DNA of 64,000 nt from Anoxybacter fermentans. GTDB lineage: Bacteria; Bacillota; Halanaerobiia; DY22613. The stretch spans positions 3,472,001-3,536,000 of the forward strand of contig NZ_CP016379.1 in assembly GCF_003991135.1 (NCBI RefSeq), read 5' to 3'. Position numbers and translations under genes: made by a program. The notes beneath the pieces were generated by a model, which saw only the letters and a list, made by a program, of their open reading frames with translations, was not told where the DNA came from and made no database searches. Shown piece after piece: positions 2,457 to 41,576 of the stretch. Each line of letters begins with the position of its first letter. Position 1 is the stretch's first letter.

Positions 2457-3455
2457 ATGAAGATTGGAAATATAGTCATTGAAAATCCGGTGATTTTAGC
2501 ACCTATGGCGGGAGTAACAGATCTACCCTTTCGACAGATTGTCAAAAAAATGGGCTGTGGTCTGGTTTATACCGAGATGGTAAGCGCAAAGGGTTTAATT
2601 TATGGCAATGAAAGGACTGAAAGACTTCTTGAGTTTGAGAAAGATGAAATTCCTGTTGCCATTCAGCTCTTTGGCTCTGAACCAGAGATTATGGCAAAAG
2701 CAGCCCGCCTGGTAGCAGAAAAAAAGCCAGCGATTATTGATATCAATATGGGTTGCCCTACTCCTAAAATAGTTAAAAATGGTGATGGTTCAGCTTTGAT
2801 GAAAGATCCAGTTCTGGCTGGCGAAATTGTTGCTGCTATGACTGAGGCTGTTGATATACCCATTACTGTTAAGATGCGTAAAGGTTGGGATGAAGATAGT
2901 GTTAATGCTGTAGAACTGGCTCAAATCTGTGTTAAAAATGGTGCTAAAGCAATAGCAGTTCACGGACGAACCAGAGAACAGTTTTATTCAGGGAAAGCAG
3001 ATTGGAAGATTATTCGAGAGGTAAAAGAAGCTGTAGATGTTCCTGTTATTGGTAATGGAGATATTTTTTCGCCGGAAGATGCGGTAGCTATGTTTGAAGA
3101 AACAGGCTGTGATGCTGTGATGATTGGTCGTGGCTGTCAGGGCAATCCCTGGATTTTTAAGCGGGTGACCCATTATCTTAAAACAGGTGAAATCCTGCCA
3201 CCTCCTTCATATTCTGAACGGATTAAGATGGCTATCGAACATTTTAAGAGACATATTGCCTATAAAGGGGAAGAAGCTGGTATTCCTCAGATGCGCAAAC
3301 ACCTGGCCTGGTATATAAAGGGTTTACCTCATTGTACTAAGGTGAAAGAGGAAATCTTCCGTCTAAAGAGTTCTGATGAGATCATTTCAACTTTGCGGGA
3401 TTATTTAGGGGAGTTAGAAGGTGATCAGTTGCAAAAAGTTAATTTTTCGCTTTAA
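2457..3455 (+). CDS. dusB: tRNA-dihydrouridine synthase DusB
   Basis: FMN-dependent reduction of uridines in tRNA. The 332-residue product has the N-terminal LAPMAGVTDLPFR flavin-binding motif, NMGCPTPKIVKNGDG near residue 97 with the catalytic cysteine of the GCP motif, KMRKGWD near 140, AVHGRTREQFYSG near 168 and the VIGNGDI and MIGRGCQGNPW phosphate-binding loops. The last eight codons and the stop (3429-3455) are identical in character to the end of the dispersed palindromic repeat family, so the natural C-terminus seems to have been replaced by repeat insertion without loss of the catalytic domain. Confidence 0.95.
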   Translation: MKIGNIVIENPVILAPMAGVTDLPFRQIVKKMGCGLVYTEMVSAKGLIYGNERTERLLEFEKDEIPVAIQLFGSEPEIMAKAARLVAEKKPAIIDINMGCPTPKIVKNGDGSALMKDPVLAGEIVAAMTEAVDIPITVKMRKGWDEDSVNAVELAQICVKNGAKAIAVHGRTREQFYSGKADWKIIREVKEAVDVPVIGNGDIFSPEDAVAMFEETGCDAVMIGRGCQGNPWIFKRVTHYLKTGEILPPPSYSERIKMAIEHFKRHIAYKGEEAGIPQMRKHLAWYIKGLPHCTKVKEEIFRLKSSDEIISTLRDYLGELEGDQLQKVNFSL

Positions 3456-35768: not shown

Positions 35769-35813
35769 AGGCTTAACAACTTAATATGTGCTTCTCACCT
35801 TTTCGCGGAAAGT

Positions 35814-36064
35814 GAGGATAGAGGCGCGGTTAAGAATGAGTAGGGAAACTGAGTTTTGGGGAACGGTGAAGTTTCTCGAAAGGTCTTGCCGCCGAAGTGA
35901 ATGACACTCACCCAGGTGTCATTTGCTGGGCCAATGCCGAATAGGTATTGGACTGTCACTACCTACCGGTGGGTAGTGGAGAGCTATCTTCAGACGGAAA
36001 GGGAAGGGTTTTTCTTTTCTATTTTCCGACTGTAAGAGGCTCTCGACTACGAGAGCTTTTTTTA
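35814..36064 (+). promoter_or_regulatory. lysine riboswitch (L-box) with terminator
   Basis: The L-box core is readable: GATAGAGGCGCGG near 35816, TGGGGAACGGTGAAG near 35857, GAAAGGTCTTGCCGCCGAAG near 35878, CTGGGCCAATGCCGAATAGG near 35927, and CACTACCTACCGGTGGGTAG near 35957 with CTATC closing P1. The terminator is GCTCTCGACTACGAGAGC at 36039-36056 plus T run. GAGAGC at 35979-35984, beside P1, is identical to the terminator's right arm, so GCTCTC at 36039-36044 can pair with either: a visible on/off switch. Lysine should favour termination. Confidence 0.93.
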
Positions 36065-36096: not shown

Positions 36097-37656
36097 ATGG
36101 AAAACTTTGGAGTACTATCACTTTTACCACCACTTGTAGCTATTATTCTGGCACTGTATTGGAGGAGAGTTATTCCATCTCTGTTTTTGGGAATCTGGGT
36201 TGCGGCAACTATGATTAATGGATTTAATCCCTTCATGGGTTTTTATAAAGCTTTTGAAGAATTTATCATTCCAAGCCTGGGCTCTAAATGGAATGCAACA
36301 ATTATTATGTATGGAGCAGCTTTTGGTGGTCTGATTGCTATTTTACAAAAAACCGGGGGTGCCCATGCAGTAGCTGAAGCAATTACGAAACGGGTTAAAT
36401 CCTCAACAGGAGCCCAGATTGCAACCTGGCTATTTGGAATTGTTATCTTTTTTGATGATTATTTTAATGCTTTGACAGTAGGAAACGTAATGCGGCCTAT
36501 TTGCGATAAGGTACGTATTTCCCGGGAAAAGTTAGCGTATATTGTTGATTCCACTTCTGCTCCTATCTGCCTTTTAATACCTGTTTCAACCTGGATTGTA
36601 TATGTTATGGGATTGATTGGAACTGAGTTTCAAAAGTTAGGGATTACTGAATCCCCATATCTGGCTTATTTAAAAACCATTCCGTATAATTTGTATTCAA
36701 TTCTGGCTTTAGTGATGGTTGCAATTATTGCTGTTACTAAAGTTGAATTTGGGCCAATGGCTCAGGCTGAACTGAGAGCAAGAAAGACTGGAAAGGTTTT
36801 AGCAGATGATGCAAATCCACCATCTTCCAAAGAAATTACCGAAGCTAGACCGAAAGAAGGTATTATTCCACGGGTTTCAAATATGGTTATTCCATTGGCT
36901 GTTCTTCTTATCATGATTCCACCATTATTTCTCTGGACTGGTGGATATAAGTGGGGCGGCAGTATTGTTGAGGCTGTAGGTAATGCTGACGGAGCTATGT
37001 CAACTTTGATAGCAGTTTTAATAGCTAGTCTGGTTGGAATTATTCTGGGAATTAGGCAGAAAATCTTTGATTTTAATGAAGGGTTGGATACTTTTATTGA
37101 AGGTGTCAAGGGGATGGTTCTGGCTTTTTTGATTCTGATTCTGGCCTGGTCCATCGGTGATGCAACCCGTGCAGTGGGAACAGCCGATTTTATTGTTCAA
37201 ATTGCTAAAGGAGTTCTTTCACCATCTCTAATTCCGGTAGTTACTTTTGTTGCCGGATGTATAATCTCTTTTTCTACCGGAACATCTTACGGTACATTTG
37301 CCATTATGATGCCCATTGCAGTACCTATAGCCTCTTCAATGGGAGTACCGATTTTTCCTGTTATTGCTGCTGTATTGAGCGGCGGAATTTTTGGTGACCA
37401 CTGTTCGCCAATCTCCGATACAACTATCCTTTCATCTACAGGTGCATCCTGTGACCATGTGGCTCATGTTCGAACACAGCTACCCTATGCCATAACAACC
37501 GGTTTGAGCGCATTGGTTGGTTTTCTGGTTATCGGTTATGTAAAATCTGCTTTAGTATCACTGGTAGTTAGTGTAATTTTACTCTATCTTCTGGTTCGTG
37601 TTTTCAGCAAAATATGGTCTGTTGAAGAGTCAATTGAAGATGTATTTGTTGCTTAA
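36097..37656 (+). CDS. NhaC-family antiporter/transporter, probable lysine transporter
   Basis: A 519-residue polytopic membrane protein of the NhaC/ion-transporter superfamily with about 11-12 hydrophobic segments, IVIFFDDYFNALTVGNVMRPICDK near residue 123, DSTSAPICLLIPVSTW near 150, GDATRAVGTADF near 353 and GGIFGDHCSPISDTTILSSTG near 430. NhaC proper exchanges sodium and protons; related genes under lysine riboswitches are known to be lysine transporters, so the L-box directly upstream makes lysine uptake the best reading. Substrate is inference; family is clear. Confidence 0.88.
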   Translation: MENFGVLSLLPPLVAIILALYWRRVIPSLFLGIWVAATMINGFNPFMGFYKAFEEFIIPSLGSKWNATIIMYGAAFGGLIAILQKTGGAHAVAEAITKRVKSSTGAQIATWLFGIVIFFDDYFNALTVGNVMRPICDKVRISREKLAYIVDSTSAPICLLIPVSTWIVYVMGLIGTEFQKLGITESPYLAYLKTIPYNLYSILALVMVAIIAVTKVEFGPMAQAELRARKTGKVLADDANPPSSKEITEARPKEGIIPRVSNMVIPLAVLLIMIPPLFLWTGGYKWGGSIVEAVGNADGAMSTLIAVLIASLVGIILGIRQKIFDFNEGLDTFIEGVKGMVLAFLILILAWSIGDATRAVGTADFIVQIAKGVLSPSLIPVVTFVAGCIISFSTGTSYGTFAIMMPIAVPIASSMGVPIFPVIAAVLSGGIFGDHCSPISDTTILSSTGASCDHVAHVRTQLPYAITTGLSALVGFLVIGYVKSALVSLVVSVILLYLLVRVFSKIWSVEESIEDVFVA

Positions 37657-37765: not shown

Positions 37766-37985
37766 AAAAACTGCACAAAGCTAATTTAGAGCGTTATTGA
37801 AATTTTTCGTTAAACTATCTTAGTGAGATTGAAGGAGAAATAAGGTCTCATCACAGGATGTGATGAGCTAATCAAGGGCCAGGAGGATCCATTGATTAGT
37901 GTGTCTTATTTCGACGGAAATCGAACATTAGATGGTTCGAAAAATTTCTTTATGAAGCGAAAAATTAGCTTTGTGTAGTAAAATA
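37766..37985 (-). repeat. palindromic repeat copy 8 (full, reverse)
   Basis: Reverse orientation: starts CTGCACAAAGCTAATTTAGAG, with GTCTCATCACAGGATGTGATGA and CTAATCAAGGGCCAGGAGGAT in the centre, and ends AAATTAGCTTTGTGTAGTA. The paired substitutions in both ends (GCACAAAGC and GCTTTGTG) keep the terminal complementarity. Confidence 0.88.
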
Positions 37986-38077: not shown

Positions 38078-38106
38078 TTGATTTTTGTCAACAAAGGTGA
38101 TATAAT
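38078..38106 (+). promoter_or_regulatory. promoter of the TPR-peptide pair
   Basis: TTGATT at 38078-38083, a 17-base spacer and TATAAT at 38101-38106, about 40 bases before the TPR start codon. Confidence 0.75.
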
Positions 38107-38148: not shown

Positions 38149-39138
38149 ATGTCTTTTGTAACACATAAGGAAAAAATTTCAGATTATTTAGGTATGGCAA
38201 GAAAATACATAGGAACAAATGATTTTGTGAATTTTATGAAAAATATATCCATAGCTGAATATCTATCCGAAAATGATCGAGAGTCTTTAGAAGAGACATT
38301 GTTTTTATTGGCAGAAGGTTTTTATAAGTTTGGCAAGTACAAGGAAGCATATGAGGTAGTTAACAGAATATTAACACTGGTAGAAAATGAAAAGACAAGG
38401 TACAGATTGTTACGTACTAAAGGAATGATTTTAGGAAAAATGGGGAATCTGGATGCGGCAATTAAAATCTTTGAAAAGCTCTTAGAAAATTGTTCATCTG
38501 AGGGATGGAGTTTAAATAATCTGGCCTGGATATATCTTTATAAATACCAGTTGGAATCAGATACAGAGTATTTACCCAAAGTAATTCAATATGGCCTGAA
38601 AGCAGTAGAATCATTTGATTTCATAACAGATCCGGTACTTAAAAAAAGTATCTTGATCAACCTTGGGAATGCTTATTGGTACTGTGAAAACTATGAGAAA
38701 GCCCTTGAATTTTTTCTGAAAGCTCTTGAGTTTGTAAAAGATGATCCAGATCCTAAGATATTGAATAATATTGGTGTTACCTATGCAAGAATGAGAAAAA
38801 TTGATAAAGCAGAAAAATACTTGCGAAAAGCTGAATTAATTGCAGAAAGAAAAAAGGATTACTTTGAGTTGGGTCAGGCTAACCTGATTCGTGCCAGGAT
38901 ATATGAATGGAACTACAATGATTATATGAAGGCTAAAGAATATTTTTTAATTGCTTTTGATAAATTTGTTCTGGCAAATGCACTATTAGAAGCATACAAA
39001 TCTCTAAAAAATATTTTGCGATTAAATGAAAAGTTAAACCGGGAGTCTATTGATATTCTTTGTAATAGATTGAAAACAAATTTGATTGAAAATTTAGGAG
39101 AAGAAGAAACATTAAGATTAGAAAGGAGGGAAGATTGA
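38149..39138 (+). CDS. TPR protein, candidate RRNPP-type peptide receptor
   Basis: A 329-residue, all-helical soluble protein without a recognisable HTH. At least six tetratricopeptide-like units are visible, for example YKFGKYKEAYEVVNRILTL near residue 62, LGKMGNLDAAIKIFEKLLEN near 102, LGNAYWYCENYEKALEFFLK near 178 and NIGVTYARMRKIDKAEKYL near 212. ATG 38149 has AGAGGGG before it; an upstream TTG does not. Its stop overlaps the ATG of a 42-residue exported peptide (TGATG). TPR bundle plus overlapping exported peptide is the architecture of Rap-Phr and related RRNPP systems. Being HTH-free it would act, like Rap proteins, through protein partners. This function is inference. Confidence 0.75.
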   Translation: MSFVTHKEKISDYLGMARKYIGTNDFVNFMKNISIAEYLSENDRESLEETLFLLAEGFYKFGKYKEAYEVVNRILTLVENEKTRYRLLRTKGMILGKMGNLDAAIKIFEKLLENCSSEGWSLNNLAWIYLYKYQLESDTEYLPKVIQYGLKAVESFDFITDPVLKKSILINLGNAYWYCENYEKALEFFLKALEFVKDDPDPKILNNIGVTYARMRKIDKAEKYLRKAELIAERKKDYFELGQANLIRARIYEWNYNDYMKAKEYFLIAFDKFVLANALLEAYKSLKNILRLNEKLNRESIDILCNRLKTNLIENLGEEETLRLERRED

Positions 39139-39266
39139 TGAAGAAGATTTTAACGATTTTGGCTGCTGTAGCAATTGTCCTCTCTTTATCTTGTGGGGTG
39201 TTGGCCGATCCTTCTCCAGATCCTGGGCCATTCCCCCTTGCAGAATCTGTACAGATTATAGATTGA
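39138..39266 (+). CDS. short exported propeptide, candidate signalling peptide
   Basis: 42 codons beginning at ATG 39138, overlapping the TPR stop by one base and preceded by GAAAGGAGGG. The N-terminus MKKILTILAAVAIVLSLSCG is a signal peptide; VLA/D offers a signal peptidase site after residue 23, leaving 19 residues starting DPSPDPGPFP and ending AESVQIID. Size, secretion signal and position match Phr-type propeptides, which are exported, trimmed to 5-10 residues, and re-imported to bind the TPR receptor. No Opp transporter is in the window. The active fragment cannot be read from the sequence. Confidence 0.75.
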   Translation: MKKILTILAAVAIVLSLSCGVLADPSPDPGPFPLAESVQIID

Positions 39267-39282: not shown

Positions 39283-39327
39283 CTCTTAAACCCTGGTTAA
39301 TTAACCATGGTTTAAGAGCTTTTTTTT
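39283..39327 (+). terminator. terminator after the TPR-peptide pair
   Basis: CTCTTAAACC and GGTTTAAGAG enclose a second palindrome GGTTAATTAACC; eight T residues follow. It defines the pair as a two-gene unit. Confidence 0.93.
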
Positions 39328-39386: not shown

Positions 39387-39607
39387 GATTAAACTGCAAA
39401 AAGCTAATTTTTCGCTTTTTGAGAAATTTTTCGAATCATCTAAAGCTCGATTTCCGCCGAAATAAGGCTTCCTAATCAAAGGGCCATCTTGCCCTTGATT
39501 AGCTCATCACCTCCTGTGATGAGGTTTTATTTCGTCGGAAATCTCGCTAAGATGATTTGGTGAAAAATTTCTATGTCGCTCAAAATTAGCTTTTTGCAGT
39601 ATAATCA
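39387..39607 (+). repeat. palindromic repeat copy 9 (full)
   Basis: GATTAAACTGCAAAAAGC at the left and GCTTTTTGCAGTATAATC at the right, with hairpins CTAATCAAAGGGCC...GCCCTTGATTAG and CTCATCAC...GTGATGAG inside. It fills most of the 414 bases between the peptide gene and the DUF1002 gene. Confidence 0.92.
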
Positions 39608-39680: not shown

Positions 39681-40547
39681 ATGAAAGTATTTAAATTCCT
39701 GTTGCTAATTATCATTTTCCTTAGTATAATAACCATGAATGTATTAGCTATTCAAGGTCAGGAATTTATTTCATTTGGCACAGATTTAAACCGGGCCCAG
39801 CGGGAACAGATGCTTAAATACTTCCAGCCTGCTGCTCGTCCACAAATGTTGGAAGTGACCAATGCTGAAGAATATTATTATCTGAGCAAATATGTACCGG
39901 CTGAACAGATCGGTAGCAGAGCTATATCTTCGGTATATCTAAAGACTCTACCCACCGATTCCGGAATCCAGGTTGAGACCTTAAACATTACCTGGGTTAC
40001 CGATGGAATGTATGCCAATGCAGCAGTAACGGCAGGTGTTAAAGATGTAATGATCAAAGCGGCTGCTCCTTTTCCTGTTTCAGGGACTGCAGCTTTAACG
40101 GGCATCTTTAAAACTTTTGAACAGGCCCAAGGCCAGCCTATTGATTCTAAGAGAAAGGAGACCGCTTATCAAGAATTAGTTATAACTGGTCAATTAGGAG
40201 AAGAGATTGGCAAGGAAAATGCAGAAGTTTTAATGCGGGATGTAAAAGAAGAAGTAGTGAAAAGGGACGTAAAAGATCCAGAAGAGATCAGGATTATTAT
40301 TGAGACCAAAGCAGGTGAATATAACCTGGAGTTGACAGAAAAACAGATTCAGGATATAGAAAAACTGATGGAAAAGATCAATATGCTGAATCTAAATGTA
40401 ACAGAGATCAACAAACAACTTAAAAGTCTTGAGACGAAGATTGAAGGAATTCAAAGACAGGGTGAAAAGATAAAGGGAATACTGGCCCTAATATTGGATT
40501 TGCTTCAGAGATTGGTCAATATTTTGGCCAAAATTTTTATAAGATGA
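39681..40547 (+). CDS. DUF1002-type secreted protein
   Basis: A 288-residue exported protein: signal peptide LLLIIIFLSIITMNVLA (cut near residue 23), then the DUF1002 pattern with FGTDLNRAQREQMLKYF near 31, VTNAEEYYYLSKYVP near 58, SRAISSVYLKTL near 77, ITWVTDGMYANAAVTAGVKDV near 102 and PFPVSGTAALTGIFKTFE near 130. The C-terminal third is a coiled coil. The family is found in Firmicutes with unknown function. It stands alone between a repeat and the T-box leader of cysE. Confidence 0.82.
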   Translation: MKVFKFLLLIIIFLSIITMNVLAIQGQEFISFGTDLNRAQREQMLKYFQPAARPQMLEVTNAEEYYYLSKYVPAEQIGSRAISSVYLKTLPTDSGIQVETLNITWVTDGMYANAAVTAGVKDVMIKAAAPFPVSGTAALTGIFKTFEQAQGQPIDSKRKETAYQELVITGQLGEEIGKENAEVLMRDVKEEVVKRDVKDPEEIRIIIETKAGEYNLELTEKQIQDIEKLMEKINMLNLNVTEINKQLKSLETKIEGIQRQGEKIKGILALILDLLQRLVNILAKIFIR

Positions 40548-40558
40548 ACCTAAGGCTC

Positions 40559-40868
40559 TTGAAAAATTGAGCAAAATCAATTATAATTAAATCATAGTAA
40601 AATACTCGGAAAAAGCAATGATGGGGAGAGAACAGTCCAGATTCTTCTGCCAGAGAGAAGATGCCCGTGGCTGAAAGCATCTTTCAGGAGAAGGATTGTT
40701 TATGCACCCTTAAGCTGGATGGTCGAAAGGAAAAGTAGGCCATTCCCGGGTGGTGTACGTTATTACACCGTAAAGTGAGCTTTAAGGTCAAGCCTTAAGG
40801 CTAAGCAGAGTGGAACCGCGGTAAATTAACCGTCTCTGTAGTCTGGTACTATAGGGGCGTTTTTTTAT
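40559..40868 (+). promoter_or_regulatory. T-box leader of cysE, probably cysteine-specific
   Basis: Promoter TTGAAA (40559-40564), 17 bases, TATAAT (40582-40587). The leader holds stem I with a plausible specifier TGC at 40703-40705 (TATGCACCC), the T-box AGAGTGGAACCGCGG at 40807-40821 and a terminator at 40831-40868 (CGTCTCTGTAGT with ACTATAGGGGCG, then T run). The specifier call rests on position and on the downstream gene. Uncharged tRNA-Cys would allow read-through. Confidence 0.9.
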
Positions 40869-40901: not shown

Positions 40902-41576
40902 GTGTTTAAAACTATAAGGGAAGATATCAAGGCGATTTTTGAAAGAGATCCAGCAGCAAAAAATATTGTGGAAGTCATCTTGTGCTATTCGGGACTTCAT
41001 GCAATTATTTTACATCGTATTGCCCACTGGTTTTATAATAAAGGGTTCACCACTATTGCGCGTATTATTTCCCAATTTAGCCGTTTTCTTACAGGAATTG
41101 AAATTCACCCTGGTGCAAAAATTGGTAAAGGGGTATTCATTGATCACGGTGCTGGTGTGGTTATCGGTGAAACAACAGAGATTGGTGATAATGTAACTAT
41201 CTACCAAGGTGTGACCCTGGGTGGTACTGGAAAAGAGAAAGGTAAGCGCCATCCTACTATTGGAGATAACGTACTGATCAGTGCTGGAGCAAAAATTCTG
41301 GGTTCTATTAAAATTGGTAATAATGTCAAAGTAGGAGCTGGTTCGGTGGTTTTAGACCCGGTACCTGATAATTGTACAGTTGTTGGTGTTCCGGGGCGTG
41401 TTGTAATCCAAAATGGTCATAAAGTTCCACGTACTGATCTAGATCACCATCTCCCTGATCCGGTTGTGGAGATGATAAAAGATTTACAAAATCGGATAAA
41501 CTATTTAGAAGAGCTTATTTTAAAAGAAAAAGATGCAGAATATAAAAAAGTGGATAAATTAGGCAAAGCTAATTGA
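40902..41576 (+). CDS. cysE: serine O-acetyltransferase
   Basis: Acetylates serine in the first step of cysteine synthesis. The 224-residue product has a helical N-terminal region, then the left-handed beta-helix of hexapeptide repeats with [33 protein letters not shown] near residue 65, [24 protein letters not shown] near 106 and VPGRVV near 164. GTG start with GGAGGTG ahead. It is controlled by the T-box. cysS, often next to cysE, is absent here. Confidence 0.94.

Follow-up and report, generated by a model that had tools for sequence, protein, structure and literature searches.

Recurrent coupling of a TPR receptor gene to an exported acidic, proline-rich peptide in Anoxybacter fermentans points to a probable RRNPPA-type signalling pair

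Does the two-gene locus at 38149-39266 of the window, a 64,000-nucleotide stretch of the Anoxybacter fermentans genome (contig NZ_CP016379.1), encode an intracellular receptor together with the exported peptide that it senses and, if so, does it belong to a kind of system already known? The features under discussion are the following.

38149..39138, plus strand: receptor ORF (ATG at 38149, TGA at 39136-39138), encoding a 329-aa cytosolic TPR protein, a putative peptide receptor without HTH.
39138..39266, plus strand: propeptide ORF of 42 aa (ATG at 39138), overlapping the receptor stop via TGATG.
39120..39130, plus strand: Shine-Dalgarno sequence of the peptide ORF, AGAAAGGAGGG, within the last codons of the receptor.
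39138..39206, plus strand: signal-peptide part, MKKILTILAAVAIVLSLSCGVLA, with predicted cleavage after VLA (rule-based, with a weak NCBIfam Phr_nterm match below the cut-off).
39207..39263, plus strand: 19-aa tail, DPSPDPGPFPLAESVQIID, the putative pheromone region, net charge -4 (acidic, proline-rich tails also occur in paralogous pairs).
38078..38106, plus strand: possible promoter for the two genes, an extended -10 type (TTGATT-17-TATAAT, TG preceding the -10) that is a consensus match only.
39283..39325, plus strand: intrinsic terminator of the pair, with a stem at 39283-39318 (-19.2 kcal/mol, z -4.5) followed by U8.

Both ORFs were found as the initial annotation had described them, that is, a 329-residue TPR ORF ending in TGATG (Pfam TPR_12, E 2.9e-18) and a 42-residue ORF with a signal peptide, a VLA/D site and a 19-residue tail. 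Upstream of the peptide start stands AAAGGAGGG, with GGAGG. The signal peptide is a rule-based call (basic N-terminus with KK, hydrophobic core, V-L-A cleavage site), and the Phr signal-peptide family TIGR04429 (NCBIfam Phr_nterm) scores 16.2 bits against a cut-off of 25 (E 0.011). A lipoprotein reading was rejected, given that the NCBIfam lipoprotein match lies below its cut-off and that the other peptides do not conserve the cysteine. The strong terminator previously placed at 39283 is borne out, as no shuffle folds as well as its stem. The promoter attributed to the pair does match the consensus, but promoter-like sites are hardly above chance (13 found versus 10 expected), so that it is only plausible.

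Several other features lie around the pair. A lysine riboswitch (RF00168, 129.9 bits) at 35811-35994 precedes an NhaC/ArcD-like antiporter gene (36097-37656), which for this reason may be a lysine transporter. Downstream, an exported DUF1002 protein (E 6.4e-76) is encoded at 39681-40547, and a T-box leader (RF00230, 98.2 bits) at 40609-40840 precedes a serine acetyltransferase-like gene at 40902.

The coupling of the two ORFs was compared with a genomic background. The rule applied takes a long ORF (150 aa or more) and a short ORF whose start lies within -20 to +60 nt; the short ORF must have a Shine-Dalgarno sequence and a product with a basic N-terminus and a hydrophobic core as its only hydrophobic stretch. 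Across twenty 20-kb genome samples plus the window (464 kb), the short-ORF rule passes in one of 314 long ORFs, and this sole pass is the window pair itself. Among the receptor-family TPR genes of A. fermentans and Halothermothrix sp. MAG B5_bin.9 it passes in 18/28, as against 0/313 of the other background ORFs (Fisher p 3e-23), and it also passes in 4/22 TPR loci of the A. fermentans genome outside the family. By rule and inspection together, A. fermentans carries at least nine pairs (L001, L002, L003, L004, L006, L043, L051, L060 and L070), five of which (L006, L043, L051, L060 and L070) have more distant TPR receptors, and the Halothermothrix MAG carries fourteen. L070 was counted by inspection because its peptide begins 52 nt before the receptor stop. 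These results confirm that the receptor-peptide gene pair is real and beyond chance. The expectation that each homologous TPR gene would be followed by a short exported ORF with a variable C-terminus therefore held in part: it holds in 18/28, with tails that vary, but some family genes (L009, L012, L022-L024 and L027) have no peptide.

Some of these loci have an unusual arrangement. In the MAG, five receptor-family TPR genes form a tandem cluster (G001:C14:242720-247751): L022-L024 and L027, without a peptide, and L020, at the end of the cluster, with one. At L003 a further peptide ORF is present, the natural start of which seems to have been shifted out of frame at an A run, and the L003 pair sits between two near-identical copies (12-248 and 3077-3313) of a 78-aa excisionase-like HTH gene. 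At L011, an in-frame stop interrupts the receptor gene; the downstream peptide ORF looks intact.

The recurrence bears directly on the reading that takes the TPR protein for a structural scaffold and the peptide for an unrelated small secreted protein, co-transcribed by happenstance. The nearest structural matches of the receptor are indeed generic scaffolding TPRs such as LGN, but none of the background genes shows the coupling, and it recurs at least 23 times, with receptors that have diverged and tails that vary; we regard this reading as very improbable.

The peptide tails vary between pairs and share a set of common traits: they are acidic (net charge -2 to -6 in all 21 tails counted), nearly free of K/R, proline-rich and almost devoid of cysteine. 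Examples are DPSPDPGPFP, TTNGPLPIADED, EPYPDEDS, GPWPDPDTDG and GPFPYPDGPYS. Of the 24 compiled tails, 21 contain the pattern P-x(1-3)-P, versus 14.1 in composition shuffles, none of 2000 shuffles reaching 21; this is the only plain test, the xPxPD-like core patterns having been picked after viewing the tails. In addition, two propeptides are internally repeated. That of L030 contains a 12-aa unit twice (2 x 36 nt), and that of L060 contains about eight 10-aa units (at least six) at 30-nt spacing, such as SGPIEQPMEL and GPIEQPMEL-like units, which differ mostly by a few codons. In this regard, RRNPPA propeptides with multiple pheromone copies are known (PMC9765709), and the repeats of L030 and L060 resemble them.

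These tail features also weigh on a second alternative, a secreted bacteriocin-like or toxin peptide accompanied by a TPR immunity or chaperone protein. The translational coupling between a larger protein and a small peptide destined for export would be in line with this notion, as would the many sactipeptide clusters reported in A. fermentans (PMC10931772). The tails, however, are acidic, with nearly no K/R and almost no cysteine, unlike cationic antimicrobial peptides; neither an exporter nor a modification gene adjoins the pair; and the multi-copy repeats fit pheromone propeptides better. We consider a bacteriocin or toxin function highly unlikely.

With respect to the receptor, the AlphaFold2 model (pLDDT 84.6, from an alignment of only two sequences) consists of eight helical hairpins plus a cap. 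Its best match among solved structures is the eukaryotic LGN (Z 26), followed among bacterial proteins by NprR (5dbk, Z 22.1), RapJ-PhrC (4gyo, Z 21.4) and several Raps (Z 20-21). The fold check thus yielded an eight-hairpin TPR superhelix compatible with the RRNPPA type, but since the unrelated LGN ranks higher, the likeness to NprR and Rap lacks specificity. PDB sequence searches returned generic TPRs only, and no sequence likeness to Rap or AimR was detectable beyond generic TPR. The family alignment shows N124, W127 and G96 to be near-invariant in peptide-bearing receptors; N124 and W127 occupy what we take, by TPR numbering, to be groove positions 6 and 9. W127 is present in 15/16 receptors with a peptide versus 2/8 without, and G96 in 14/16 versus 0/8, a contrast that is only a hint because shared ancestry is ignored and the tandem cluster gives several of the negatives.

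The initial annotation had described the receptor as lacking an HTH, and this agrees with our results, for none is present in the model or among the Pfam and NCBIfam matches listed. The superposition on NprR covers model residues 1-313 and NprR residues 103-418 (301 residues aligned), model residue 1 falls on RapH 86 and RapJ 42, and model residue 8 falls on RapI 101. Given these starting points, the HTH-bearing part and most of the Rap bundle are absent; one alignment to RapF does begin at its residue 3, with a high rmsd of 6.5 A. NprR-NprX of the Bacillus cereus group accordingly resembles the pair in that its TPR domain superposes over the whole length and its peptide gene follows the receptor gene, but differs in its N-terminal HTH, and specific sequence similarity is lacking.

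An orthodox Rap-Phr system, whose receptor acts on a response regulator (by dephosphorylation of a Spo0F-like one or sequestration of a ComA-like one) until the peptide lifts this effect, is closer in some respects. The gene layout is alike, an HTH-less TPR receptor being joined to a short propeptide exported by Sec (here by prediction), Rap structures are among the matches, Spo0A is present in the genome, although without a link to the pair, and the weak Phr_nterm match points the same way. In contrast, the N-terminal three-helix bundle by which Rap binds response regulators (RapH_N, PF18801) is absent among the receptor's Pfam matches listed, the best hit in the genome being below the cut-off and at another locus (E 0.95). 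The Rap-like protein-binding mode proposed earlier consequently loses its footing, the more so as the model begins at residues 42-101 of the RapH, RapJ and RapI chains. Moreover, the tails here are acidic and proline-rich, unlike Phr pentapeptides, most of which carry a basic residue. Together, these differences make an orthodox Rap-Phr system unlikely.

The novelty suggested for the pair has to be qualified. An HTH-less RRNPPA candidate subfamily, designated 'subfamily 17 of Anoxybacter fermentans', is in print according to the main text of PMC12700828, drawn from the RRNPP_detector set (PMC10075063), so that the pair is of a kind already known and the claim that no such pair had been described for this kind of organism falls. 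PMC10075063 gives ranges of 250-500 aa for receptors, 10-100 aa for propeptides and -60 to 400 bp for spacing. The window pair (329 aa, 42 aa, TGATG overlap, Shine-Dalgarno sequence) lies inside these length and spacing ranges, and its receptor is without an export signal of its own. Like subfamily 17, it combines an HTH-less TPR receptor with an adjacent propeptide in A. fermentans, and we infer that it belongs to this published subfamily. The main text of the two papers does not describe acidic, proline-rich tails, multi-copy propeptides or the size of the repertoire; with respect to that text, the paralogue census, the acidic proline-rich peptide code and the multi-copy propeptides appear to be new.

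The distribution of the system is narrow, comprising one family. Searches covering 59 genomes from the class and 398 from the phylum gave strong matches to the family in A. fermentans and Halothermothrix sp. MAG B5_bin.9 only, and beyond these two there is one partial match (E 4.8e-16), to an HTH-TPR protein. Spread by phage or plasmid was rejected, as there is no phage match and the listed plasmid matches are generic cyanobacterial TPRs. A dispersed palindromic element of about 212 bp, with ends ACTGCAAAAAGCTAATTTT and no coding capacity seen, lies at 37770-37979 and 39391-39602, and recurs at some ten further sites in the window. A mobile cassette bounded by these flanking palindromes (~210 bp) was likewise rejected: with ~74 copies in the 400 kb of genome sampled, their presence beside the pair is to be expected, and the element is missing from 7/9 A. 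fermentans pairs. Extrapolation from that sample suggests some 650 copies genome-wide.

Taken together, the recurrence among paralogues, the variable tails, the multi-copy propeptides and a predicted TPR superhelix compatible with the RRNPPA type give good support to the reading of the locus as a receptor with an exported peptide. The locus as a whole is best explained as an intracellular peptide receptor of the RRNPPA type together with the pheromone cognate to it, with a probability of roughly 0.8. The 42-aa propeptide would be exported by Sec, with signal peptidase I presumably cutting after VLA, and trimming of the product would leave a short pheromone, acidic and rich in proline, from within DPSPDPGPFP. 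Re-import may proceed via one of the oligopeptide permeases of the genome, which encodes nine SBP_bac_5 proteins. The pheromone would then bind the cytosolic eight-hairpin protein in its concave groove, probably through an asparagine ladder (N124, N171 and N207) and stacking of W127 on its prolines. As the receptor has no HTH, its output most likely consists in contact with another regulatory protein, a contact that peptide binding would switch, and the cell would operate nine or more of these channels side by side.

A more far-reaching view, which we put forward only tentatively and consider doubtful, is that of a family-restricted network of at least nine parallel channels with an acidic, xPxPD-like code and a third, undescribed output mode, the latter because the receptors have neither the HTH nor the Rap bundle.

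If the receptor-pheromone reading is true, a deep-branching anaerobe lineage uses an enlarged vocabulary of peptides to communicate with itself, and this lineage stands outside the Bacilli, where HTH-less receptors have been best studied. As the two known output domains are both missing, the question arises of how the signal passes onward, and the tail pattern together with the internal repeats narrows down the candidate pheromones for direct synthesis and testing.
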